Part shown: positions 4,525 through 19,132 of the stretch, piece by piece
Layout: each line of letters begins with the position of its first letter
How positions within the stretch are numbered: the first letter of the stretch is position 1
From: a virus
Virus record (IMG/VR): IMGVR_UViG_3300033146_000553
Coordinates: 1-20,398 of that record
Direction: 5' to 3' (one strand)
DNA: 20,398 nt
Made by a program: the position numbers and the translations under genes
Notes under the pieces: model-generated
Told to the model about the DNA's origin: nothing
Databases searched by the model: none
Seen by the model: the letters and a program-made list of their open reading frames with translations, nothing else

Positions 4525-5115
4525 CTATACTAGTATTGAAGCTGTTTTAAGATTGTTATCGTTTACGAAAACCTCGTTCTCCTGCACGTCGTAACTAGCA
4601 CCGCCGACATTTTCAAGATAATAGAAAGGGATGTTACCAAGGTTTAACTGGCAACCATATATGTGAAACCCAGTATTAACTGAAGAATTTGGACAGTTAA
4701 AGTCCAACCAGTCAGACCCACCATGCACTACAGGGACAACGTAAGGATACCAAAGTCCAGTAGTCGGTCTTAAGATATGAGATCCTTGACCGTCTCCGTA
4801 ATCAACCCGGAAGTTACCGTCACCTATAACACGCTTGATCCAGCATGAAAAAGTGTAAGGCTCCCCAGCAGACGGAACGGTGATGAGTTGCTGCCTCATC
4901 ACTAAAGTAGAAGTCCCGAACAAAATATTGTTAGCGTTGTTAGCTCTACCTAGAGGATCAGCAACGTCCTTAGTGCAAGAGATAACGTCATCGTAATCCC
5001 ACCGACCGACACCAGTCCCGGTAACGGTCATGTCGTTGTTATTACCGATAATGTTCTGTTGAGTTACTGAAACTTTTCTTAACTTACTAGAAGCATCTGA
5101 TACTGTGAAACCCAT
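4525..5115 (-). CDS. Fibre-tip-like lectin-type protein with MGFTV leader (first copy)
   Basis: This 196-residue protein begins MGFTVSDASSK. Its ATG overlaps the stop of the 1462-residue fibre gene (TAATG), with GGAAG upstream, so translation is probably coupled. The body has features of a jelly-roll carbohydrate-binding module: a long strand-rich N-terminus, then EPYTFSCWIKR, GNFRVDYGDG, FHIYGCQLNLG and PFYYLENVGG. The W-I-K and I-Y-G-C-Q-L patterns are typical of phage-encoded laminin-G or concanavalin-like folds. Function as a receptor-binding tip is inferred from fold-like patterns and location; no enzyme motif is visible. The MGFTV(S/R)DA leader is shared with the next gene downstream, while the rest of the two proteins shows no obvious similarity. 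Confidence 0.65.
   Translation of the reverse strand: MGFTVSDASSKLRKVSVTQQNIIGNNNDMTVTGTGVGRWDYDDVISCTKDVADPLGRANNANNILFGTSTLVMRQQLITVPSAGEPYTFSCWIKRVIGDGNFRVDYGDGQGSHILRPTTGLWYPYVVPVVHGGSDWLDFNCPNSSVNTGFHIYGCQLNLGNIPFYYLENVGGASYDVQENEVFVNDNNLKTASILV
5093..5115 (-). repeat. Direct repeat copy 1: gene-start leader (MGFTVSDA)
   Basis: This is the partner of 4500-4522, 593 bases apart. The two mismatches are adjacent and fall in the Ser/Arg codon region. Recombination between the copies would remove one tip gene and join the other, in frame, to the fibre gene's TAATG. Confidence 0.85.
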
Positions 5116-8100
5116 TATTCATCTTCCATTTCCTCACCATCAGCCCAAGATCTTAACTGACCACCCCCAGCACCAGATCCTTGAGTAATAGTGATTATTA
5201 TATCTGTGATTGCGTCTGCATTAGGGGTTTCAATTTTAGCTATGAAACCAGCAGCAGACCCGGAAGGTATCGTAACGCCCGTTGCAAACTTAGTTAGATT
5301 ACCTGTCACACCAACGTTGAAGATTAAGTCTTGTGCGAAAGACCCGGACATTCTCCTAACTTTAACGAAGTTAGGGCTGAATGTATGACCAGTAGGGGCA
5401 GAGTAAATTGTTTCACCTGCACCGTTTGCATCAATCAACAAGGTAGCTTCGACAGCTTTAACATACTTCTTAACAGTTTGTTTAGTAGTGTTGTCGATTG
5501 TCGAGCTTAACGCTAGGTCTGTTCTTGGGTTTGAGATCTGCTCAGAGTCTCTAACGATAACGTGAGACCTTGTTGAGGCAGAACCCATCTGGAAGACTAA
5601 GTTGTCAACCTGACCAGCACTATCGATGATGAAGTCATCTTTGCGTCTTAACCAGTAAGAGTCTCCGACGTTGATGAAAGCATCGCCTGAAAGTGTAAGT
5701 TGAGTTTCAGAATCTACACTACTAACAGTGTATTCTTTATACCCGTTAACTTGGAAAGAACCTGTGTAGTTAAAGCTACCCCCGGTGCTCACAACTGTAT
5801 CTCCTACCTGAACACCATCGGTGATGAATGTGGCAGCAGCATCGATGAGCAATCCTGTTGAGAGACTTGTGATAGTTCCATTCACTCCGAAGTTAGGTTG
5901 AACGCCTATTCGGATGTTTCTGCTTCTATCTAGTGTATCTTCACAAAGGTGAATGTGACCGATAGCATAACGGCTGACTGGAAGACCGAGTTTAGCATTT
6001 GAGTAAGAGTTCGGGTGTGAACCTCCTCGTAAAGTAATACCAGAAGCACCACCAAAATATTCAGTGATGATATGCTTTGTTGGGTCTGGGTCGAAATTAC
6101 CACCTGCTGCAGAACCTCCAAACTGGATCGCTCCGATGTTAAGCATCTGAGTTCCTTCAGTATTCTGAGCTACCGGACCGCCTAGAGAAAGATTAGTAAC
6201 TCGGGCAGACCATTGACGGACTTCATATGCCACACCATTTGAACTATAGTTATTTTCTAAACTCAACTGGGTCTCAGAGTCAACAGCAGTTACACGTGTG
6301 TTAGAACCGTTAACGAATACTCTGTCTCCTACGATTACGCCGTCTGTAATAAACGTCGCAGTAGAATCATTCAATTTATTCGCAACAAAACTATCTGTGG
6401 TTCCTGAAGACTTAATACCACCACCTGTTTTACCAGAATAAGAAAGTGACATTAGACTTACTTTATTATTCTCAAAATCGTTAGTAGACCAACCGAAGCT
6501 GCCTACGTTTGACGCAGTAGAATAGAAGTCAACGCCATGCCCAGACTGCAACCTCATGAACAGGTTGTCATCTGATCTGAACTGGATAGAAGGATTAAAA
6601 GTCAATGACGGTATAATGTCTAGACCGTTGTCATGCTGTGGTTGCATATACCAAGCACCGTTATTCCGTGGCTGAACTCTTAAACTACCGAGTGTGTCCC
6701 AGAACCAATAAGTTCCAGTTCCACTAAACCCTGCTCTAAACTCAAGGTCACCGAACTGAACGTTGTTCTGCAGACTGGTTAAAATGTTTGTATCATCGTG
6801 ATCGATTTTGAAAATCTCACGCATAGTTCCATCATCACCAGATCCGTCGTCACTTCTTCGAATAGTTAACTCTGGTGTAGAAGAACTATAATCCATCTGG
6901 ATCCTAGACATTCCAGTTCTACCATCAAATATAACACTTGATGCGTTTGACTGTTGTGGTTGGATACCGAAGTATTTACCACCTGCGTTGTCTTGGCTAA
7001 ACCTTACCTGACTATTATACTGATTGGTTACAGAATGAACTCGAAGGTTCATATGACCAGTTGCCTTAAGAGTCATTACATCTTCTTCGATACGGTAATT
7101 CTGACCAGAAGAGAAAATATTATCTTGAACAGACAGTTGAGTCTCAGAATCGATCGCATCAATACGAGTGCTACTACCTGTAGTCTCGTTAAATACAATA
7201 TCTCCTACGTTAAACAAATCACTTGTGATAAATGTGGCAGTGGAATCGATAAGCTTATTTGAAGCTGCCCCATCTGTAACTCCAGTATCACGTTGAAGCT
7301 CTTGACTACCTATAGCTAATTGTTGATAACCTTCGGTTGGTCTAACTGCTAGAATACCAGATGAACCTAAAAAGTCAGCGTTACCAGTCCTAACGTAAAC
7401 AATCGCATTATCATTTCTGTTATCAATGAAAGTAAGGTTAGAAGTAGTTGTCTCAAAAATTCTTGAGTAGACTCTTCCCCAATTGAATGACGAGTTACCG
7501 TTATTACGTGCTGCATCAACGTCAGGTCTGTTACTTTGGTAGAAGGTAAATCCTGAAGGTGATGTTCCGAACAATGGCGAACCATTAGATCTCCATTGAT
7601 AAGAACCCCCAAGACCCGGAAGATAACCATCCCAGATAGCACCCTGATTGCTTACGTCCATCTTAACACCTCGTTCATACCCACCATTTGTGTATGAATC
7701 TAAGAAAACGTAGTCGCCTCTGTTGCCGATTGCAGATTCGTTACCTGCTCTGAAGATGATGTTAGACTGATCGCCTTTAGCCTGAATCAACAGATCTTCC
7801 TCTGAGCAAAGGTCTAGCTGACCACCTGCATTGAAGGCGATATTGTTGTCGTTGCCGTTAGTCCCGAACTCCCAAGTGTTAGTTCCCACGGAGTAGAGTT
7901 CACCAGTAGTAAAGATGTTTGCATCAACAGTAAGTTCAGTTTCAGAATCAATCGATGTAATGATTGCTGAAGTATGGTCTGTCCAGTTGAACGCTCTGTC
8001 ACCTACTTGAACAAGACCTGTGCTGATAAATGTCTGAGTAGAGTCTACGAGTTTATTTGTTAATGTGAGGTCAGTTGTGCCTGACTCTTTTGCTGTCCCA

Positions 8101-9503
8101 CCAAACTTAAGACGTAACTGCTGGCTGTAATCGATGTGGTTCTGGAAAGCGAGGTCAGACATGTTATGCCTGTCACCACCCATGTTCAGCTTGATACCAA
8201 CTAAAGGTGCTCCACCGTTTGTCGAAGACGGTGATGCGTGAATTAAGAGAGGGTTGTTTATCCTGCCTCTTAAGGTAGTGTCAGTTGTTCCGTCAGTTTG
8301 GTATGCTCCTGTTGTTACAGGGATCCCATTCATCTCGAGATTACCAAGACCTGTCATCTGAACCCCTTGAGCATTCCCAAAGAACCTAAATGCAGTGTCT
8401 GCGTTGGTTCTGTAAAAGTCTCCTAAGTCTTGAGTGCCTTGTCTCCAAGTGTAACCCGGAACATTGGTAGCTGAAACTCTATACTGGATCGCACCAGCAA
8501 TATCGTTGATAATATAATTATTATTATTTACTGTAGAGTATTCTAAGTAAGGAGAGTAGTCAGAGTTAGGCTTGATCCTTACCCTAGTATTCTCGTCACC
8601 TTGTCCTTCGATCTGCCAAACGTTATCGTTAACTTTCCCTAAAACTAAGTCTATACCTGAACCAGATGCCTGAGTGTCTCTGAACCAGATATTACCACGA
8701 CCTATATTATTACCAACATCAAAGTATAAGTTTGCGTTAGTTCGTGTAGCTTGGAATGTTTGATCACCGTCTACTGCTAAGAAAGTCTGATCATGATACC
8801 CACCTGCGTTGTTTGTCTGAGTTTGGAAAATAACCCTAGCACCAGTAGACTGAGCTATAGTAGTTATAGCTTCAGTGCCACCACCAAATGTGTAAGGAGT
8901 TCTCGCTGTTAAATTAACTTTCTGAACAAGAAGTGTTCCTGTGCTGAAGCCGTCTACATAAAATCTATGACCAGAGTTTCCTGCTGCTCTATACTCCCAA
9001 GTGCCATTCCCTCTAGAGATTGAAAGATCTCCGATCTGTCCTATCGTCTCAGCATCGTGGATGATGATAGAACCACCTTGATTACCATTACCTGCTTGGA
9101 AAGTTATGTCACCTCCGTCTACAGTATTAGTATAACGTAAAGATTGGATCTCACGAATCCTCTGGAACTGTCCACCGATTTGATGAGCATTATCAGCATT
9201 CGGGTAAAGGCTACCGTAGTGGGTGATAGAAGAACTCTCGAATCTTAGTATGTTATTTCCATCATACTTTAAAGCCCAACGTGAAGTCTGTTGAGGCTCG
9301 AAGCTCATGTCTCTAGATCCAGTTCTCGGATCTTTAATTAAGAACTCTCCCGGCGAAGCATCAGTCCCTGCGAGAACACATACCCTACCACCTGCAGAAG
9401 TATTCTCTATGCAATCTGCATTTTGGACTAAAGGTGGTAGAAGACCTCCACCTCCAGTGTTACTTCTTCCGCCTAAATCGTCTAGTGTAGTTCTCTCACT
9501 CAT
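5115..9503 (-). CDS. Giant tail fibre / appendage protein with four repeated modules
   Basis: This 1462-residue protein starts MSERTTLDDLGGRSNTGGGG, with a Gly/Pro-rich linker up to about residue 30. It consists of long beta-rich stretches rich in Asn, Gly, Thr and Ser (GGDITFQAGNG, GNIWFRDTQASG, NIIFRAGNES, RNIRIGVQPNFG) that look like repeated fibre strands. Four copies of a ~65-residue module interrupt them at about 474-539, 740-806, 1033-1095 and 1209-1286. Each has NKL-x-DSTATFIT, VGD-x-V, then SETQL. The C-terminal ~110 residues, including SAPTGHTFSPNFVKVRRMSG, form a distinct end domain. Composition, length and place after the capsid genes fit a trimeric fibre or surface appendage. No enzymatic motif is seen. 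It starts 6 bases after the stop of the 257-residue gene and is coupled to the tip gene by TAATG. Confidence 0.8.
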   Translation of the reverse strand: MSERTTLDDLGGRSNTGGGGLLPPLVQNADCIENTSAGGRVCVLAGTDASPGEFLIKDPRTGSRDMSFEPQQTSRWALKYDGNNILRFESSSITHYGSLYPNADNAHQIGGQFQRIREIQSLRYTNTVDGGDITFQAGNGNQGGSIIIHDAETIGQIGDLSISRGNGTWEYRAAGNSGHRFYVDGFSTGTLLVQKVNLTARTPYTFGGGTEAITTIAQSTGARVIFQTQTNNAGGYHDQTFLAVDGDQTFQATRTNANLYFDVGNNIGRGNIWFRDTQASGSGIDLVLGKVNDNVWQIEGQGDENTRVRIKPNSDYSPYLEYSTVNNNNYIINDIAGAIQYRVSATNVPGYTWRQGTQDLGDFYRTNADTAFRFFGNAQGVQMTGLGNLEMNGIPVTTGAYQTDGTTDTTLRGRINNPLLIHASPSSTNGGAPLVGIKLNMGGDRHNMSDLAFQNHIDYSQQLRLKFGGTAKESGTTDLTLTNKLVDSTQTFISTGLVQVGDRAFNWTDHTSAIITSIDSETELTVDANIFTTGELYSVGTNTWEFGTNGNDNNIAFNAGGQLDLCSEEDLLIQAKGDQSNIIFRAGNESAIGNRGDYVFLDSYTNGGYERGVKMDVSNQGAIWDGYLPGLGGSYQWRSNGSPLFGTSPSGFTFYQSNRPDVDAARNNGNSSFNWGRVYSRIFETTTSNLTFIDNRNDNAIVYVRTGNADFLGSSGILAVRPTEGYQQLAIGSQELQRDTGVTDGAASNKLIDSTATFITSDLFNVGDIVFNETTGSSTRIDAIDSETQLSVQDNIFSSGQNYRIEEDVMTLKATGHMNLRVHSVTNQYNSQVRFSQDNAGGKYFGIQPQQSNASSVIFDGRTGMSRIQMDYSSSTPELTIRRSDDGSGDDGTMREIFKIDHDDTNILTSLQNNVQFGDLEFRAGFSGTGTYWFWDTLGSLRVQPRNNGAWYMQPQHDNGLDIIPSLTFNPSIQFRSDDNLFMRLQSGHGVDFYSTASNVGSFGWSTNDFENNKVSLMSLSYSGKTGGGIKSSGTTDSFVANKLNDSTATFITDGVIVGDRVFVNGSNTRVTAVDSETQLSLENNYSSNGVAYEVRQWSARVTNLSLGGPVAQNTEGTQMLNIGAIQFGGSAAGGNFDPDPTKHIITEYFGGASGITLRGGSHPNSYSNAKLGLPVSRYAIGHIHLCEDTLDRSRNIRIGVQPNFGVNGTITSLSTGLLIDAAATFITDGVQVGDTVVSTGGSFNYTGSFQVNGYKEYTVSSVDSETQLTLSGDAFINVGDSYWLRRKDDFIIDSAGQVDNLVFQMGSASTRSHVIVRDSEQISNPRTDLALSSTIDNTTKQTVKKYVKAVEATLLIDANGAGETIYSAPTGHTFSPNFVKVRRMSGSFAQDLIFNVGVTGNLTKFATGVTIPSGSAAGFIAKIETPNADAITDIIITITQGSGAGGGQLRSWADGEEMEDE
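5646..5879 (-). repeat. Fibre module, copy 4
   Basis: Residues about 1209-1286. It has LLIDAAATFITDGVQVGDTV and SSVDSETQLTLSGDAFINVG. It is longer than the other copies because of an insertion (GSFNYTGSFQVNGYKEY) between the VGD strand and SETQL. Confidence 0.75.
6219..6407 (-). repeat. Fibre module, copy 3
   Basis: Residues about 1033-1095: SGTTDSF, NKLNDSTATFITDGVIVGD, then TAVDSETQLSLENNYSSNG. Its SGTTD opening matches copy 1. Confidence 0.8.
7086..7286 (-). repeat. Fibre module, copy 2
   Basis: Residues about 740-806: TGVTDG, NKLIDSTATFITSDLFNVGD, then DAIDSETQLSVQDNIFSSG and NYRIEE. Confidence 0.8.
7887..8084 (-). repeat. Fibre module, copy 1
   Basis: Residues about 474-539: SGTTDLT, NKLVDSTQTFISTGLVQVGD, then TSIDSETELTVDANIFTTG and LYSV. 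Confidence 0.8.
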
Positions 9504-9509
9504 GAGTTT

Positions 9510-10283
9510 TTAGTTTCCAGTATAGTAAGGTGTAGCAATATTGCCTCCAGTCCCATCTTCAGAAACAAAGGTGATACGGACTTGAGCCACAGAAAAATTC
9601 ATTTTGTTAAGCATCTTCCTACCAGTAGTAGTATAAACGCTGTCTTCGCCTAAGGCGTCTAAGTTAAACCAAGAAGTTCCACCATCGTTAGAGCCTTCAA
9701 CACGAACTACGATTTCTGTAGATGTGCCAAGAGTTGTGATGTCGAAATCAAATGTATGGTTTAAATTTTGTGAAGAATCGAATACATCTGAAGATTCACC
9801 CGGGTTAGCCATGCCATCCACAGACGCTTGAGGAGCTGATCCTACTTTACCTGTGTTGACTGCTTCGAGTATACCTCTTAGCAAAGAAGCTAGACTCGCT
9901 GCTGCTGCGTCTGGGTCTGTAATCTTCGTTGACCCAAGAACACCTTGGGCTTCGAACATACCTCTAATAAAATCGTTTAACGCACCTGATGCTGCGTCTG
10001 GATCCTGCTCTTTGTTATTAGCGTTTACATCACCGAGGTTGTCCTCGATTTGCTGTGTGTTAACTACGAGCTCGGAATTGGAAAGGTCGATGCTATCGAC
10101 ATCGATTTCCATATTCAAGAGAGCTTGAAGCATCGCTTGGAATAGAGCGATTGTCTGAGGGTCGGAAGCTGCAATCAGGTGTCCCAACGAGTTAACCCCA
10201 ACGTGGCGAACAGTATCTTCACCTATGAGAGCTTCGTAAGGAACTCTCCCTTCATCGTTTACTTTATATCCTTGTAAAGACAT
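9510..10283 (-). CDS. Virion protein with N-terminal helical repeats and C-terminal beta domain
   Basis: This 257-residue protein has three parts. Residues 1-40 carry YKVNDEGRVPYEAL, similar to the start of the neighbouring triplet-repeat protein (INEEGRI). Residues ~41-150 hold helical segments that begin with Asp-Pro: DPQTIALFQAMLQALLN (41), DPDAASGALNDFIRGMFEAQ (94) and DPDAAAASLASLLRGILEAV (123). The last two form a 29-residue tandem. Residues ~165-257 form a beta-rich domain (HTFDFDITTLG, EIVVRVEGSNDGGTSWFNL, SVAQVRITFVSEDG) like those of phage decoration and fibre-joining proteins. The start ATG 10283 has GAGAGGA upstream, a good SD for this genome. Function is unassigned; it may connect capsid or neck to the following giant fibre. 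Confidence 0.65.
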   Translation of the reverse strand: MSLQGYKVNDEGRVPYEALIGEDTVRHVGVNSLGHLIAASDPQTIALFQAMLQALLNMEIDVDSIDLSNSELVVNTQQIEDNLGDVNANNKEQDPDAASGALNDFIRGMFEAQGVLGSTKITDPDAAAASLASLLRGILEAVNTGKVGSAPQASVDGMANPGESSDVFDSSQNLNHTFDFDITTLGTSTEIVVRVEGSNDGGTSWFNLDALGEDSVYTTTGRKMLNKMNFSVAQVRITFVSEDGTGGNIATPYYTGN

Positions 10284-10345: not shown

Positions 10346-10996
10346 TTAGCTATCGAAAGATAAACCATCTTCCGCATAAACTGCAACAGTAGAAACTTCG
10401 CCATGACCAACTATTTCTGGTTGGGCTGCTTGAGCTGCTACCGCTGGTTGTTCAGCGTATTCAGGCAATCCAGATACTGAAGCGATTGACGCTGCAGACG
10501 CAACAGCTGCTGCGGTTGCAGTCACTGCTACAGATGCAACTGACGCAAGCGAACCTTGAGAAGCTACTGCTGCTCTTGAAGCTCGGCCTGCTCGAGACGG
10601 ACGTGAAGCCCTGCTCGCTACAGATGCGTAGGACGCATGAGATGGGTAAAGGTTAGCGATCGCCCCGACTGAGCCTACAGAACCTTGAGAGGCCTGAGAT
10701 GCCACCGATGCTATAGGAGCAATAGATGACACAGCACCAGCAGAAGCTAAGGATGCTCTCGACGCAACAGAAGATCTCGAAGCAAGAGAACCGACGCTCG
10801 CTTGTGAAGCACGGCCTTCTAAACCTTTGAGAGGAGCTGTAGCACCTTGAGAAGCAACAGAGGCTGCGGAAGCCACAGAAGCGACAGAAGCACGAGATGC
10901 TTCAGCTGCTCCGATAGGAGTCTTAACTCGGTGGTCAACACTTTGGTTAATGCGACCTTCCTCGTTAATAGAAACTACTTTGTTTTTCTCTGACAT
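10346..10996 (-). CDS. (X-Ala-Ser)n triplet-repeat protein beside the capsid genes
   Basis: This 216-residue protein has a short charged N-terminus (MSEKNKVVSINEEGRINQSV), then a period-3 tract from residue 32 to 176 and a non-repetitive tail (LPEYAEQPAVAAQAAQPEI to the end). The tract is built of about 48 triplets of the form X-[Ala/Gly]-Ser; 29 fit exactly. X is usually Val, Arg, Gln, Leu, Ile or Ala. One extra residue near 119-122 shifts the register once, by the LYPSHAS segment. There is no signal peptide. Strict period 3 with small residues at two of three positions recalls collagen or polyglycine-II fibres, but Gly is not obligatory, so neither fold can be claimed. Position between small virion genes suggests a head or neck fibre; this is inference. 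The ATG follows an A/T-rich leader without an SD. Confidence 0.7.
   Translation of the reverse strand: MSEKNKVVSINEEGRINQSVDHRVKTPIGAAEASRASVASVASAASVASQGATAPLKGLEGRASQASVGSLASRSSVASRASLASAGAVSSIAPIASVASQASQGSVGSVGAIANLYPSHASYASVASRASRPSRAGRASRAAVASQGSLASVASVAVTATAAAVASAASIASVSGLPEYAEQPAVAAQAAQPEIVGHGEVSTVAVYAEDGLSFDS
10469..10903 (-). repeat. Coding triplet (9-bp) repeat tract, X-Ala-Ser
   Basis: About 145 codons of degenerate 9-bp repeats. Codons for Ala and Ser vary between copies, so the repetition is kept at the protein level rather than as a recent DNA expansion. Runs include RASVASVASAASVAS, IASVASQASQGSVGS and VASQGSLASVAS. Confidence 0.85.
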
Positions 10997-11008: not shown

Positions 11009-11353
11009 TTAAGATTTATCTTCAATTGAATCACGATAAGTTGCTTTCCCTACTGATATTTCATCACTAAGAACGGTTACAGCATCTTTTTCCTGATTTT
11101 TTTCTTTGGGTTTCGGAGCCAGTTGCTGGGCCGTAGAGCTCAGATCTTTTTTTTTAAGGTCGTCGAACTCGGCCTTATCAATCTCTGTGATCGCTTTTCC
11201 GTAACTGGAAAGAAGAGCAGCGTCTTCTTCGCTTTCAGTTTCGTAAACACCGATCCAAGAACTTGACTTCAGCACGCATGACTCGAACTTGAAAGACTTG
11301 TTACCAATCCGGTAGAGTCTTGTAGCGTTCGTTGTTCTGAAATATTTTTTCAT
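11009..11353 (-). CDS. Small capsid-region protein, 114 residues
   Basis: ATG 11353 (MKKYFRTTNATRLYRIGNKS) is chosen because an upstream TTG start would lie within the hairpin after the capsid gene. The N-terminal ~60 residues look like a compact beta domain (FRTTNATRLYRIG, FKFESCVLKSSSWIGVYET) followed by ALLSSYGKAITEIDKAEFDDL. The C-terminal third is charged and probably disordered (LAPKPKEKNQEKDA, VGKATYRDSIEDKS). No named family. Small proteins placed directly after the major capsid gene in tailed phages are often decoration, head-completion or head-tail joining proteins; the sequence alone does not decide. Confidence 0.65.
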   Translation of the reverse strand: MKKYFRTTNATRLYRIGNKSFKFESCVLKSSSWIGVYETESEEDAALLSSYGKAITEIDKAEFDDLKKKDLSSTAQQLAPKPKEKNQEKDAVTVLSDEISVGKATYRDSIEDKS

Positions 11354-11374
11354 AGTTAAAGGGAAAGTAAAGGA

Positions 11375-11393
11375 AAGGGAGCTAAGCTCCCTT
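11375..11393 (-). terminator. Intrinsic terminator-like hairpin after the capsid gene
   Basis: A perfect 8-bp stem (AAGGGAGC with GCTCCCTT) closes a 3-base loop, 18 bases after the capsid stop. On the minus strand it is followed by a pyrimidine/T-rich run (TTTCCTTTACTTTCC). Partial termination here would make capsid mRNA more abundant than the genes beyond. Confidence 0.6.
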
Positions 11394-11410
11394 CCCAAAT
11401 TCCATCACGA

Positions 11411-13084
11411 TTATGGACATCCCACCGCAGTAGTTGCTGGGCAAGAAAGGTTGAAGTTGTGTATGATCAGGTGACGCTCTGGTCGGTCAACCATAGTAGT
11501 CCACTTCGTAGAACGAAGATTATACTCATGGATGTTCGCCTTCATACGACACTTGTAGAGTTCCTGAACTTCAGGAGCTGGAGACTTGCGAGTAACACTC
11601 TCAGTTCCACCGATACCAACCTTAACGTCAGACCAGTCTAGGAACCAAAGGTTACGGCCACGTGACTGGAAGTCACCTCCGCCCTTGGAGTTGTCGAACG
11701 CATCTACGAAATCGTCGAAGAATGGCTCACGGAATACCGCCCACTGAACTGAACTGTCAGGGATATCATACAGATCGAAGTCGAAACTTACGATACCGTT
11801 GAAGTCTACCTTCTGTCCAACTTGTGCGTTACGCTGAGTAGCAACACCGTAGCGGTTTTGGTAATAACGGCTCATAGCATCGAAGATGTTATTTGCAGTC
11901 TTACGGTCAGTGAAACAGTCAATTGTAGAAACTGACTCGCCCATTGAACTACGGTTACGCTTTAGCAAGTAAAGCTCGTTGAAGATCACGTCTAGATCAA
12001 GGTTGTTACCACCAAGGTCAAGAACACGGCCAGACTCGTTTAGGATCGTGAAGATACCTAGAGCGTTAGCTTTGTATTCAAGTGTGCAACTTGGGTCTTC
12101 TGGATCTGTGATCTTAGGTAGGTCAGCGTATCCTTCTACAGTTTGCTTACTGTTGATGTAATCATTGTAGAATGTTGAACGCAACCAAGCTTCCTCGCTC
12201 ATCGCAGATGCCATCTTATTCTGGTCGGCGATGTTCTGATACTCGAAAGTTTGATCCCACGCATTTACCTTACCGTCTAAGATTCTCTGAAGAGTATCTC
12301 TGTAGACGTCGTTCACACAACGAGACTCACGTGAAGTCTGGAACCAGTTAACCAACAGACCCATTGGGTTATCTGTAGGCTGATTCTCACACCAGTCTTC
12401 CCAATCGCTCACGTTGTTCGCCATGATTTGGATCATGCCGTAATCAGGGATGAGCTCAGTAGTCAAATCGTCGTCCACTGGGAAGTCTGACTTACCCAAT
12501 GGGAAAGCTGTAACTGTCGCAGTTGTTGGATCAACGTTTGCACTACCAGTGATTTGATACTGGATTGTCTTCGCGTTTTTAGAAGCGTCCCATGTAAGAA
12601 CTGAAAGAGTCATTCCCGGTAGGAAGTAACGCTCAAGGTTCTTTAACGCAGTTGTCGCAAAAGCAGAAGTATCAACAGTCACCGTAAACGTAACACCGAA
12701 AGTGGTGTTGTCGCCTGCTGTTGCAGAACGGCCTGCTTCAGGAACCGCAGCATTGATGCTGAAATACTGAGCGTTGATGATAGACTTCTGTCTACGCTGA
12801 ATATAAGGGAGAATAATAGACTGCTCTTCAAATGTAATCTTATTCATTTGAGGCTTCATATTTCTCACACTACTTTTTAGAAGCATTGCGAGACCTTTTT
12901 GAGGCACCCCCAATGCAGCAGCTTCAGCGGAACTAGCTATAACTCGGGCTAACTCAGGTTCTTTACCAGACAACGCTTCAAAACGAGCAGGTGTTAAACC
13001 TTCGATACTAGCTTTAGTTAATGTGCATCCGCATGAGTCATCTACCTTTACAATTCTAGGTAGGAATTCTGGTGCTAATGGCAT
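11411..13084 (-). CDS. Major capsid protein
   Basis: This 557-residue protein lies directly after the scaffold gene and is preceded by its own promoter, as expected of a major capsid gene. Its N-terminus has a two-Cys element (SCGC, residues 17-20) and a helical region (GLTPARFEALSGKEPELARV), which may act in assembly. The middle carries a long beta insertion (TTFGVTFTVTVDTSAF, TIQYQITGSANVD) and then helices around WEDWCENQPTDN and GLLVNWFQTSRES. The C-terminal part includes VQWAVFREPFFDDFVDAF and HEYNLRSTKWTTMVDRPERH. An HK97-type fold is expected but cannot be read directly. Nine cysteines are present, with pairs at both ends (18/20 and 548/556). The ATG follows an A/T-rich leader (TAAAAAAATATT) without an SD. 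Confidence 0.85.
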   Translation of the reverse strand: MPLAPEFLPRIVKVDDSCGCTLTKASIEGLTPARFEALSGKEPELARVIASSAEAAALGVPQKGLAMLLKSSVRNMKPQMNKITFEEQSIILPYIQRRQKSIINAQYFSINAAVPEAGRSATAGDNTTFGVTFTVTVDTSAFATTALKNLERYFLPGMTLSVLTWDASKNAKTIQYQITGSANVDPTTATVTAFPLGKSDFPVDDDLTTELIPDYGMIQIMANNVSDWEDWCENQPTDNPMGLLVNWFQTSRESRCVNDVYRDTLQRILDGKVNAWDQTFEYQNIADQNKMASAMSEEAWLRSTFYNDYINSKQTVEGYADLPKITDPEDPSCTLEYKANALGIFTILNESGRVLDLGGNNLDLDVIFNELYLLKRNRSSMGESVSTIDCFTDRKTANNIFDAMSRYYQNRYGVATQRNAQVGQKVDFNGIVSFDFDLYDIPDSSVQWAVFREPFFDDFVDAFDNSKGGGDFQSRGRNLWFLDWSDVKVGIGGTESVTRKSPAPEVQELYKCRMKANIHEYNLRSTKWTTMVDRPERHLIIHNFNLSCPATTAVGCP

Positions 13085-13274: not shown

Positions 13275-14726
13275 CTACGAACTGTGGTAACCGAGCAAAT
13301 TAGTAGCTGTATTACCTTCTGGAGCCTTGCCCTCTGGTATGTCACCGTGTTGGCTTGAACGAGGTGGGGGAGTCGTTGCCTTCGATGCAGGGGGATCTCC
13401 TGCTGGTGGAGTAACCGGAGCAGCAGAATTTTCTGGACGCTTCCACCCATACGATTCTAGCCTCTTATACTCTGAGTCGATTTGCTGATTGACAGACCTC
13501 TGGATCGAGATCTTCAGCATAGACAAGATGTGCTCTGAGTCGAACGACCAATACTTTTCACCCTGACCTGCAGCCACAGCTTCATTGTATTTCTTGATCG
13601 GTAAGAACTGCTTGCCATCTACGACTCGATCAGCACCGCCAGTTTCCCAGAATGCTTGACCCTGTGCATCAACGAATTTTTCCAGTGCAGCATGCACAGG
13701 ATTGTTCGCACTATCCATAGGCTTAGCACCTTTAGTGATAGCGACGAGTTCGTCGGCATACTGTTTACCTCGTGCCAGACCTTGTTGAATGATGCCATAC
13801 TCAAGACCGAAAGCTTTTTGTGCTCCCTCATCTCCGTCTTTAGCGATAGCATCTTTAACGTGTTGAGGAACTACGTCATCGTAGAGTTCGCCTTGATACT
13901 CTTTAACACGTTGTTCAATCTGAGGTTTAAGGTGTAATTGTTTATTCTCAGCCTTTAGCTTTTCAGTTTCCTTATTCGCTTCAGCTGACGCTCTAACAGT
14001 AGCCTCATGAATATTACGCCTGTCACGCATCTCAAGCAATTCAACGTCTGAGATGTTAGGACGCTCACGGTCTAAGAAAGCTTTATACTCATAGTCGTTT
14101 GCGTTCGGCTCAAATGTAGGATCCTTCTCACGTGCCTGCTTTACGTAATCACGATGTGCTTTAAAGAACTTGAGCATCTTTTCGTCGAGTCCTTTATGCT
14201 GGTCTCCCATCTGCTCAGAAGCAAACTTAGCAAGCTCATACTCATACTTCTCTTGTGGGAGCAAATCGTCGAGTAGTTCTTGGTCTGGGTTACCTGCTGG
14301 TGGATCTCCGGCTGGAGGATCTTTAGAAGGTTCAAAAGTCGGTAGCTCGTCGGCTGGGCCGGACGGCTTCTTATACTTAACAACAGGTTCTTTTTTAGCA
14401 GGAGGTGTTTCTCCGGCAGGTGGGTCGCCAGCTGGAGGATCCCCTGCTGGTGGGTCACCTGCTGGTGGATCTCCACCATCTTCAGGAATGTCAGCTAAAA
14501 TATCGGACAGACTCGCTGCTGGTCTGTTAGGTTTAGACTCCTCTGGTGGGTCTCCTTCTGGAGGATCTCCACTCGGTGGATCACCTGCTGGTGGATCTCC
14601 GGCAGGCGGATCGCCAGCTGGAGGCTCGTTCTTGTCAGTATCGCTCGTTAGTTGGAATAACGAATCGACTACATTCTCCCCGGTTATTTCTGGTTCCGGG
14701 GGTGTATCTTTATTCTCATCGCCCAT
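13275..14726 (-). CDS. Capsid scaffolding protein with PPAGD pentapeptide repeats
   Basis: This 483-residue acidic protein lies between portal and major capsid genes, the standard place for a scaffold. The first ~150 residues are disordered and built on Pro-Pro-Ala-Gly-Asp repeats: array one at residues 35-62, array two at 87-106, a short one at 137-146, and another fragment near the C-terminus (440-447). Residues ~150-430 are helical and charged, with a coiled-coil-like core (EATVRASAEANKETEKLKAE) and long hydrophilic helices, typical of scaffolds that copolymerise with capsid and leave or are cleaved. No protease triad is visible. It begins ATGGGCGAT at 14726, 14 bases after the portal stop, and ends before a strong terminator. 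Confidence 0.75.
   Translation of the reverse strand: MGDENKDTPPEPEITGENVVDSLFQLTSDTDKNEPPAGDPPAGDPPAGDPPSGDPPEGDPPEESKPNRPAASLSDILADIPEDGGDPPAGDPPAGDPPAGDPPAGETPPAKKEPVVKYKKPSGPADELPTFEPSKDPPAGDPPAGNPDQELLDDLLPQEKYEYELAKFASEQMGDQHKGLDEKMLKFFKAHRDYVKQAREKDPTFEPNANDYEYKAFLDRERPNISDVELLEMRDRRNIHEATVRASAEANKETEKLKAENKQLHLKPQIEQRVKEYQGELYDDVVPQHVKDAIAKDGDEGAQKAFGLEYGIIQQGLARGKQYADELVAITKGAKPMDSANNPVHAALEKFVDAQGQAFWETGGADRVVDGKQFLPIKKYNEAVAAGQGEKYWSFDSEHILSMLKISIQRSVNQQIDSEYKRLESYGWKRPENSAAPVTPPAGDPPASKATTPPPRSSQHGDIPEGKAPEGNTATNLLGYHSS
14409..14468 (-). repeat. PPAGD repeat array 2 (15-bp units)
   Basis: Four pentapeptide units: PPAGD three times, then PPAGE. A further pair lies at 14289-14318 and one and a half units at 13386-13409. 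Confidence 0.85.
14541..14624 (-). repeat. PPAGD repeat array 1 (15-bp units)
   Basis: Five full pentapeptides (PPAGD x3, PPSGD, PPEGD) plus a partial one. Synonymous codon differences between units indicate an older expansion. Confidence 0.85.
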
Positions 14727-14740
14727 TATCGTGATTTAGG

Positions 14741-16405
14741 TTATGCAGGACTCCCGGCCGGAGGTGCTGCTGGAGGTGCTCCACCTGCAGGGGCTCCACC
14801 TTGTCCTTCTGGACTTGGGATTCCTGCAGCTGCCTCAACCGTAGCGAGCCTCTGAGTAAGAGCTGCGATTGCTTCTTGTAACTGTTGGTTAAGATCAGGA
14901 GTTATATCCTCATCAGATTCGAGATTCAAATCAGATCCAGTAAGTCTGAACACTTCATTGACCATCTCAAAAAGTTTTGCGTCGCCCATCTTCTCCATCA
15001 CTGGAGGCAACTGAACTACTTGTGCGATCAGTTGAGTAAGCGTCTGGGCAGCTTGCGTGTTGGAAAATCTTTCAGCACCGTCACGAGAAGTAAATAGCAC
15101 ATCATGACGAAGGTCTTGGACAGACCCAAGAATCGTTCTACGGATAACATCTTTCTCTCCAGTAGTCTTATCCTCAACGATCTTAAAGCCTGCAGCTTCA
15201 ACCACTGACTCAGGATATCGTTCGAGTGTCGGCACCTCTACCTTATCGGAAGAGCAGCACAGCAAAGACTCGTATAACAATTTCTTCAGACCTTCACGTT
15301 GGTAATCAACGTCGTCAGAAATTGAAGTGAATATTGAATTAGTGGTATTGGAAATTTCTTGAACCTCACGTGCAGATATTTCACGTGGTGCAGGTTGACC
15401 CAGTTCTTGAGGCGAGAATACAAGCAGACGTTCTGCCAGTCCCATCAACTCAGACATCGCACGAATTGAGTCAGAGATGTTATGTGAGATGCTTGACTCT
15501 ATAACTTCAACAGCAGACTTAACATCGATACCTACATCAGCAAGTTCCGTCCTTGAAACAAATAACGCTTGAGGATTCGCATAGTAGTTCTCGTTCTTAA
15601 GGATATTCTTCAACGCCTCCTGAGTTTCACTATCGATTACATCTTTGTTGAAGATGTAAAGTTTCATCAAGCCTGCTTTCATGTTGAGAAGCATTTGGCT
15701 AACGATGTTTGAAAGTTGATCTTGGTAAGGTATGATGTCGTGTGCCATCGAGTTGTTTAACACACGGTCATCTTTCTGGTTTATGCCACCGTATACCGCT
15801 GGGATCGAAGGGAGGAACTCACCTTTAACTACTGTGTTATCAGATGCGATCGTGAGCTTGACCCATACGCTGTAAGGGTAATCGCAGATACCGAGATCCT
15901 TAGGGATAACCTTTTCAAAATACTCAGTTAAGAATACTGGTTTGTCAGCGTCTTCTGTAGAGTATCTGTTAAGGTTAGACTTCTCGTCATTCTCAGAACT
16001 AACGTCATTTTTTGTATAGTTCGGGAACTTAATCTGACAAGGGTTGAAGTAGTAATCAAAAAATGTTTTATACTTTTCTACGTGAGTGGCTGAGCTAGAA
16101 GAGTAATCAATCGCATCTCTGTTGAAGAATCCTGATGCTGTCTTAACTTGACCGTAGAGAACAATATCCCAGTGCAATAACCAGTTAGGCCCGAGATCGT
16201 CGTTCTTCTTTCTCAATCTTCGCTTCCCCTTTATCACCTTTAGTATCTTCCCCTGACGTAGGGATCGAAGTAGGAGTGTCAGCGTTATTACGGGTAGGGA
16301 CGAGGTGTTTCTCCTCAGTCCAACGACACGTTGGGAAAGTAAGAGAGTATCCGTAGAGGAACATGTCACGCACTGCTTGCTGCGAGAAAAATCTACGGTA
16401 ACCAA
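14741..16405 (-). CDS. Portal protein, C-terminal reading frame (gene broken by frameshift)
   Basis: This frame stays open from 16405 to the stop at 14741, but only the part from about 16210 on reads as portal. The first ~65 codons are the out-of-frame shadow of the N-terminal fragment. Recognisable portal-like parts include LGPNWLLHWDIVLYGQ, then AHDIIPYQDQLSNIVSQMLL and the helical LSNIVSQMLLNMKAGLMKL, IRAMSELMGLAERLLVFSPQ and PREISAREVQEISNTTNSI. The portal ring of 12 subunits is the DNA gateway and head-tail connector. The last ~25 residues are Gly/Pro/Ala-rich (GGAPAGGAPPAAPPAG), probably a disordered tail. Joined with the N-terminal fragment, the protein would be about 733 residues, long for a portal. 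Confidence 0.7.
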   Translation of the reverse strand: MVTVDFSRSKQCVTCSSTDTLLLSQRVVGLRRNTSSLPVITLTLLLRSLRQGKILKVIKGKRRLRKKNDDLGPNWLLHWDIVLYGQVKTASGFFNRDAIDYSSSSATHVEKYKTFFDYYFNPCQIKFPNYTKNDVSSENDEKSNLNRYSTEDADKPVFLTEYFEKVIPKDLGICDYPYSVWVKLTIASDNTVVKGEFLPSIPAVYGGINQKDDRVLNNSMAHDIIPYQDQLSNIVSQMLLNMKAGLMKLYIFNKDVIDSETQEALKNILKNENYYANPQALFVSRTELADVGIDVKSAVEVIESSISHNISDSIRAMSELMGLAERLLVFSPQELGQPAPREISAREVQEISNTTNSIFTSISDDVDYQREGLKKLLYESLLCCSSDKVEVPTLERYPESVVEAAGFKIVEDKTTGEKDVIRRTILGSVQDLRHDVLFTSRDGAERFSNTQAAQTLTQLIAQVVQLPPVMEKMGDAKLFEMVNEVFRLTGSDLNLESDEDITPDLNQQLQEAIAALTQRLATVEAAAGIPSPEGQGGAPAGGAPPAAPPAGSPA

Positions 16406-17600: not shown

Positions 17601-18836
17601 CTACCTGTTGCCTATCCCGATGTCAAGTAATTCTGACTTGGTCTCGTCAGCCTTACGGACGTTATTACCGCTTAGCTCGTGGTGAAGCATAGGGTAAGTC
17701 ATCGCATCGAATGTGTGGATATAGATTGAACGTTTAGGTTTGAAAGCTGCTGAAGGGTCGTATTTACCCTCTTTCACCTTCTCACACTGTAAATTAAGGA
17801 ACATCTGCTTCACCTTTGTGCAAGATGATGAAACGATCAACCGCTCAGTATTGAGCAAATTGTTTACGATACGCACACGAGCCTCGACTGAACCGCCGAA
17901 CTTAGGGGCTGCTTTCATCTTGATCGGCTTCAGATCTTTGAAGGAAGTCTTGATCAGCTCTTTACTCTCCCTCTCGTAGTCCAGCACGTCATAGCTCCCA
18001 TCAGAGCCGGGACGGAACTGGTTAAATGCTGAGTCGTCCGAGATATCTTCGTAGTTGTAGTGCATCTTTCGGATGCGGTTCCAGAACATCATACGCCTCA
18101 TCTGTTCACGCACAAGGACTCTGGTCTTCAATTTTTGGTTGATATATACCATTTCATCGAAGACTACCCACACGATACCCCTGTCTTTAGTAGGTATCAT
18201 CTGCATCCATATGATAGCATTATTCGCTGAACCGAGGTCATAGCCGAATGTGATCGGGTAGTTCATAGAAGGTAGGACTCGCTTCTTAGCGTTACCCATG
18301 ACGTGAACCTCTGGGAAGAAAGAGTTAGCGAAGATGCCGTCACCAACTGGACGGTCAACCCACTTACCTTCAACCATCCGTTCGATTTCAATAGGATCGT
18401 CACGTGTCGCCTCAATAACCGATTCGTAGTAGGAATCGTTCAGATACGTGTTATCCTTTGAGGTCATCTCTATCTGGATATAGCGTTTATCCCACTCACC
18501 TTCTGGGGATATTATATCGCCTTGACGGTTCTTAGATTCTTTTAAAGGTATCTCAAAGAAGCGTTTATACACCCAGTGACTCGGTCCGTCAGGATTCGTA
18601 GCCATGAGGTATTGCTGGAGTGGCACACCGGGACGACGACCTATCTGTTGGACAACCGCAGTGAAATACCCCGGCCCACCGAGAGTAGTTCCCTCATCCA
18701 CAAACACAAAGGATGGCTCGAAACCACGGATACGGTTCTTCAAGATATCCTCGTGCGGTGCTGAGATAAGGAGCAACTTTGACCAGCCACCCCAAGCATT
18801 CTGCACCATACGGTAACGATACCTCATTTCGTCCAT
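17601..18836 (-). CDS. terL: Terminase large subunit, main fragment (lacks Walker A; frame broken)
   Basis: This 411-residue frame opens at ATG 18836; the same frame is open further upstream to 18944, including GVRSQATQGGIWEKLENEI, so the start given is not the true one. Motifs in order: Walker B and catalytic Glu VFVDEGT (44-50), coupling motif YLMATNPDGP (76-85), and the RNase H-like nuclease centre with Asp in GYDLGSANNA (200), VVFDEMVY (227) and HTFDAMTYP (377). Together these show a headful- or site-cutting TerL ATPase-nuclease. Its Walker A lies in the other frame, on the adjacent upstream fragment. The reconstructed gene would give about 510 residues. Confidence 0.9.
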   Translation of the reverse strand: MDEMRYRYRMVQNAWGGWSKLLLISAPHEDILKNRIRGFEPSFVFVDEGTTLGGPGYFTAVVQQIGRRPGVPLQQYLMATNPDGPSHWVYKRFFEIPLKESKNRQGDIISPEGEWDKRYIQIEMTSKDNTYLNDSYYESVIEATRDDPIEIERMVEGKWVDRPVGDGIFANSFFPEVHVMGNAKKRVLPSMNYPITFGYDLGSANNAIIWMQMIPTKDRGIVWVVFDEMVYINQKLKTRVLVREQMRRMMFWNRIRKMHYNYEDISDDSAFNQFRPGSDGSYDVLDYERESKELIKTSFKDLKPIKMKAAPKFGGSVEARVRIVNNLLNTERLIVSSSCTKVKQMFLNLQCEKVKEGKYDPSAAFKPKRSIYIHTFDAMTYPMLHHELSGNNVRKADETKSELLDIGIGNR

Positions 18837-18940
18837 ACGTGGCTCTTTGTAGACCAGACCGAGGTTATCCCTCCAGTCGGGGAGGATCTCGTTTTCTAGC
18901 TTCTCCCAGATACCACCTTGAGTCGCCTGAGAACGGACAC

Positions 18941-19132
18941 CTAAGTCTTACCACCGCCTCTGTCGCCCCACATGAGGCCGAAGCGAGCTGTCATGTCAAA
19001 TACCCTTTGTTGATCCGCCGTAAGCGTAGGAGCCCACGTTAACGGCTCCTCAGGAGGGCCGTCGACTATCGGCTCGTTACCGAGGAGTTCTCTCAGCTCC
19101 TCGAAAGCATCATCGTCAAAATCAAGTGCCAC
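18941..19132 (-). CDS. terL: Terminase large subunit, N-terminal fragment with Walker A
   Basis: This 63-residue frame starts at GTG 19132, overlapping the TerS stop by 11 bases. It ends FGLMWGDRGGGKT followed at once by TAG (18943-18941). GDRGGGKT is the terminase Walker A (P-loop). In the frame used by the rest of TerL the sequence then reads LGVRSQATQGG. The two frames overlap by only about 7 bases (a TAA closes the second frame at 18948-18950), so the change of frame must lie within GACTTAG. In related terminases about 20 residues (a helix and a strand) separate the P-loop from a VR-S/T-x-x motif; here there is almost nothing, so a deletion is suspected. Confidence 0.85.
   Translation of the reverse strand: MALDFDDDAFEELRELLGNEPIVDGPPEEPLTWAPTLTADQQRVFDMTARFGLMWGDRGGGKT

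Follow-up and report, generated by a model that had tools for sequence, protein, structure and literature searches.

The X-Ala-Ser gene and its neighbourhood

The window analysed here, a stretch of 20,398 bases, is contig C246 of the MAG G000 (3.07 Mb, 85% complete). Two other loci of this MAG have a similar GC content (44.9 and 45.0%, against 44.5% in the window), and the uncultured tailed phage that it encodes may consequently be one of the G000 host, with a binning error also possible. On the minus strand, the window carries a structural gene cluster in the order terminase, portal, scaffold-like gene, major capsid protein (MCP), small accessory gene, X-Ala-Ser gene, genes for a 257-residue protein and a 1462-residue fibre-like protein, further small genes, and a probable adaptor. 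The features relevant to the X-Ala-Ser gene are as follows.

13275–14726, minus strand: conserved scaffold-like gene upstream of the MCP gene, its putative function assigned by position
11411–13084, minus strand: MCP gene, predicted HK97 fold, 557 residues (AlphaFold and Foldseek)
11009–11398, minus strand: small conserved accessory gene between the MCP and X-Ala-Ser genes, with a homologue after the MCP gene in relatives
10346–10996, minus strand: X-Ala-Ser protein gene, one open reading frame with an ATG start (216 residues plus stop codon)
10904–10996, minus strand: N-terminal non-repeat segment (residues 1–31), which resembles the N-terminus of the X-Ala-Ser protein of the relative L002 and may be a virion anchor
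10463–10903, minus strand: X-Ala-Ser tract (residues 32–178, ~147 residues)
10349–10462, minus strand: C-terminal non-repeat segment (residues 179–216, 38 residues)
9510–10283, minus strand: 257-residue protein downstream of the X-Ala-Ser gene, without known family
5115–9503, minus strand: 1462-residue putative fibre-like protein, without known family

By its predicted structure, the 557-residue neighbour is an HK97-fold MCP, since an AlphaFold model computed with 20 relatives (mean pLDDT 75) matched the capsid proteins of phages VP1 (E = 6.6e-15) and phicrAss001 (2.2e-14) in a Foldseek search against the PDB. The X-Ala-Ser gene is indeed located next to the major capsid genes, as reported, separated from the MCP gene by the one small conserved gene. 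Within the same cluster, the N-terminal third of the scaffold-like protein contains numerous PPAGD repeats. The portal and terminase genes are each split between two frames (16185–16405 and 18836–18941), unlike their intact homologues in relatives such as L002; assembly errors, decay or unusual expression may account for this.

Residues 32–180 of the X-Ala-Ser protein contain 30 X-[Ala/Gly]-Ser triplets, 26 of them X-Ala-Ser, and 22 of the 30 are spaced exactly three residues from the preceding one. By comparison, composition-preserving shuffles of the same residues gave 13.3 ± 2.6 triplets and 1.2 ± 1.1 three-residue spacings, and none of 20,000 reached the observed values. The triplet repeat of the preliminary description, which had counted 29 copies, is thus real, and so is its single register slip: two registers (18 and 12 triplets) are joined at ..LYPSHASYAS... 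The X position is occupied mainly by V, R, Q, L and I.

Codon evidence and charge of the tract

At the DNA level, all 30 nine-base units differ while the coded pattern stays constant. The third position of the codons comes close to random (about 1.8 bits), whereas the two Ala-determining bases have an entropy of zero and the Ser bases one of 0.39 bits. Tandem Repeats Finder showed just short weak arrays, so the pattern sits at the protein level. Nearly random third positions beside fixed or nearly fixed Ala and Ser coding bases suggest that purifying selection maintains the pattern in the protein, in line with what had been proposed from the differing codons. Ser codons, in turn, are nearly all of one type (28 TCN vs 2 AGY), which suggests that the units descend from one old amplified TCN unit, followed by synonymous saturation.

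Such a bias, as would follow one-unit amplification, also fits a tract that is a disordered low-complexity linker or bristle, kept for length and solubility, its grammar being a slippage relic of the nine-base unit. The composition is in keeping with this (Ala/Ser-rich, few large hydrophobics), and so is the very low confidence of AlphaFold, which when run on two sequences returned no confident fold (pLDDT 34)—an outcome that in itself favours no reading and rules out none. However, a free linker would need neither fixed Ala and Ser positions nor a held register; here, the synonymous sites are saturated, yet the Ala and Ser positions are fixed, and the tract of L002 holds its register over about 57 triplets. 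We therefore consider a mere linker a doubtful explanation.

The tract has a net charge of +8, including the Arg-rich stretch RASRPSRAGRASRAA, and Arg fills five successive X positions. Together with a gene that adjoins the MCP region, this charge would suit a protein that acts inside the head or in its assembly, such as one that contacts DNA or is related to the scaffold. A separate, conserved scaffold-like gene already precedes the MCP gene, however, the L002 tract reaches a net charge of only +4, and the full 216-residue protein of our phage is near neutral (15 K/R, 13 D/E), all of which makes an internal role clearly unlikely.

Related phages and X-Ala-Ser flagellins

In IMG/VR, at least 130 stretches encode relatives of the MCP, 80 of which we fetched, and seven contigs of GTDB genomes carry such relatives as well. 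Of the 97 fetched loci (some of which are one contig repeated), 73 encode a homologue of the small accessory gene no more than 300 bp past the MCP gene, while the region beyond this homologue differs greatly in length and content between relatives. Only one of these loci harbors an X-Ala-Ser gene (L002:17482–18156), namely that of the closest relative, the IMG/VR phage IMGVR_UViG_3300010234_000008 (L002; 63% identity in the MCP, 56% in the terminase). The gene lies between the MCP gene and the homologous small accessory gene, i.e., beside the MCP gene as in our phage, but with the order relative to the accessory gene swapped. The two proteins have the same grammar and X alphabet, 40% aligned identity, and similar N-termini (ungapped BLOSUM62 score 24, shuffle p = 0.0005); that of L002 is higher in Pro and lower in Arg, has no database name, and keeps 30 of its 31 triplets in one register. 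A pattern-less orthologue in the same position, named beforehand as counter-evidence, did not turn up: the sole recognisable relative retains the pattern, and the other phages carry unrelated genes.

Between the MCP and adaptor genes, the relatives are variable, and some genomes contain fibre-like genes in this stretch. The fibre-like protein of L019 contains phage tail repeats along with BspA-type LRR, and L012 and L014 encode a 141-residue protein directly after the MCP that includes a short Ala/Ser-rich stretch. Past its structural genes, the L002 phage also encodes a giant protein of more than 4,100 residues (L251:7502–19999), whose frame is still open where that stretch ends.

We found no family for the X-Ala-Ser protein in Pfam, PHROGs, the PDB or, by tblastn, INPHARED, in agreement with the initial view that no described phage family follows this rule; BLAST masks such low-complexity sequence, which also weakens the searches that revealed no phage relatives outside the clade. 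Nothing meaningful resembled the protein among solved structures in the PDB, and no known capsid-binding domain was matched in Pfam or PHROGs. A profile built from five proteins in search of a shared N-terminal virion motif recovered nothing beyond its training sequences. In INPHARED, tblastn gave no match for the MCP and the portal protein, and remote matches only for the terminase.

In DNA-pattern searches of IMG/VR (4- and 5-unit), whose census is a minimum, many of the long matches, among those listed, were antisense frames of (D-A-R/W)n repeat proteins or apparently recent slippage tracts. Long D-A-R/D-A-W triplet repeats, another period-3 grammar whose antisense frames mimic X-A-S, occur in a series of phage proteins (L105, L108, L144, L163, L171, L182, L244–L247). 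Three phage fibre-like proteins (L359, L355 and L293), the first with a YadA_head repeat, do contain X-A-S triplets, but as short F/Y-A-S-T-A-S hexads within large proteins, in which an aromatic X alternates with Thr.

A profile built from the two phage X-Ala-Ser proteins was run on 395 genomes of the host's phylum and matched, besides this stretch, only one protein each in G214 (L230) and G305 (L238), both of family f82 and both flagellins. In the G305 flagellin, the tract lies between Flagellin_N (residues 5–141) and Flagellin_C (364–449). Like the phage proteins, these bacterial flagellins have a long X-Ala-Ser tract with a similar set of X residues (V/I/L/M or Q/R). Unlike them, they embed it between the two flagellin domains, and their X residues strictly alternate between hydrophobic and Q/R. 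The phage protein itself has no Pfam match, and hence neither Flagellin_N nor Flagellin_C, so we rejected its classification as a flagellin. The alternation of hydrophobic with Arg/Gln residues that had been ascribed to the phage tract was absent there: 12 pairs of neighbouring X residues matched in class and 11 were opposite (p = 0.66), and class periodicity at lag 6 was not detected. As far as the sequences tell, phage and flagellin tracts thus have their alphabet in common but not the hexad, because the X period of 6 occurs in the flagellins and is absent from the phages; homology and convergence cannot be told apart.

This difference bears on whether the phage tract might form a left-handed beta-helix (hexapeptide) or another beta-solenoid shaft. 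The X-Ala-Ser flagellins, with their period-6 alternation and hydrophobicity power at periods 2 and 6, would be compatible with such a fold, and the same periods appear in a flagellin with hexapeptide-looking repeats (G038). The phage tracts, however, show neither period, ours places Arg at five X positions in a row, and AlphaFold offered no confident beta model. The hexapeptide beta-helix, which calls for period 6 with an aliphatic residue at position i, was accordingly dropped for the phage tract, which lacks the period 6 of the two flagellins, and we deem a solenoid shaft of any kind very unlikely.

Both X-Ala-Ser flagellin loci (L249:7095–13557 and L250:9406–18432) are situated near a conserved cluster of genes for DUF3880/Glyco_trans_1_2, TPR + Glyco_transf_41 (GT41) and FkbM methyltransferase proteins. 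In our sample, GT41 (E ≤ 1e-20) was present in 6 of 148 genomes, and near a flagellin gene in just one (G038) of 65 flagellin-bearing genomes, as compared to two of two X-Ala-Ser flagellin genomes—which amount to one evolutionary observation, G214 and G305 being one family. The G038 flagellin (L259, G038:C3) is an 825-residue frame whose repeats are central, with the GT41 gene ~1.4 kb away. Flagellins are usually glycosylated in their surface-exposed central domains (PMC7591256). It is plausible that the X-Ala-Ser flagellins, with glycosyltransferase-type genes next to their own, are glycan carriers. In the host MAG G000 (85% complete), we found no GT41, and its flagellin is short (272 residues) and without an X-Ala-Ser tract. 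An apparent fit of S-X-A to an O-GlcNAc transferase acceptor consensus was discarded, since O-GlcNAc sites have no consensus according to a review (PMC12645433).

Proposed role and comparison with known fibres

Our preferred reading, to which we assign a probability of 0.45, is that the X-Ala-Ser protein is an accessory component exposed on the virion, be it a head fibre, a neck-associated fibre or a decoration stalk, and that it is built as an extended small-residue stalk. Its short N-terminal segment would anchor it to the head or neck, from which the ~147-residue tract would reach outward to meet the host or the environment, presenting in every triplet a Ser and a variable side chain (V/I/L/Y or Q/R). 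Virion location, outward orientation and extended conformation are what we infer. For an accessory part of the virion speaks a pattern far beyond chance beside an HK97-fold MCP, together with the L002 relative in the same neighbourhood; in both phages, the gene is part of the head cluster and close to the MCP gene, as is expected of a head fibre or decoration protein. For exposure speaks that the cellular X-Ala-Ser tracts in the 395 phylum genomes are found in flagellins only, in a central, surface-exposed position. The head fibre or neck whisker of the preliminary description hence gains from the capsid-side location, the L002 protein of the same grammar and the fibre-like genes nearby in relatives, with presence in the virion itself still conjectural.

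With lesser confidence, we add that the regularly spaced Ser residues may carry glycans, a feature likewise inferred, and by analogy with the X-Ala-Ser flagellin genes, which adjoin genes of the protein-glycosyltransferase type. Against this addition speaks that the host MAG yielded no GT41, unless the enzyme is supplied by another family or by the missing part of the MAG; the contig covers the phage genome in part. Since the only non-phage proteins with such a tract in the 395 genomes are the two flagellins, the phage protein might even echo the exposed centre of flagellin, as a virion fibre with the X-Ala-Ser grammar of flagellins that binds flagella (by packing like with like, or via a glycan coat common to both) or that passes as host surface; we regard this as highly improbable.

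Functionally, the exposed accessory protein that we propose would most resemble the head fibres and decoration stalks of phages, by analogy; membership in any described family is unsupported. Phi29 gp8.5, SPP1 gp12, T4 Hoc and the capsid fibres of phages 7-7-1 and phiCbK are likewise head accessories thought to aid adsorption (PMC7602432, PMC12796354), and the fibres of the latter two contact host flagella (PMC12796354). We saw no sequence relation to any of these proteins. Phi29 gp8.5 differs in being a coiled coil, whereas SPP1 gp12 has a period-3 (collagen-like) repeat as well, but with Gly at every third residue.

Collagen-like and polyglycine II fibres do have an exact three-residue period and small residues in common with the X-Ala-Ser protein. 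Still, the likeness to them that had been suggested was not supported: a collagen-like protein requires Gly at each third position, and a polyglycine II or PPII bundle consists of Gly-rich strands, whereas Gly accounts for 11 of 149 residues (~7%) of our tract. The flagellin likeness raises the question of whether X-Ala-Ser is a surface or glycan-carrier module common to bacteria and their phages. If the protein is indeed on the virion, its design belongs to uncultured phages for whose capsid and portal proteins tblastn against INPHARED gave no match, and would represent a stalk that employs Ala and Ser where collagen-like fibres use Gly.
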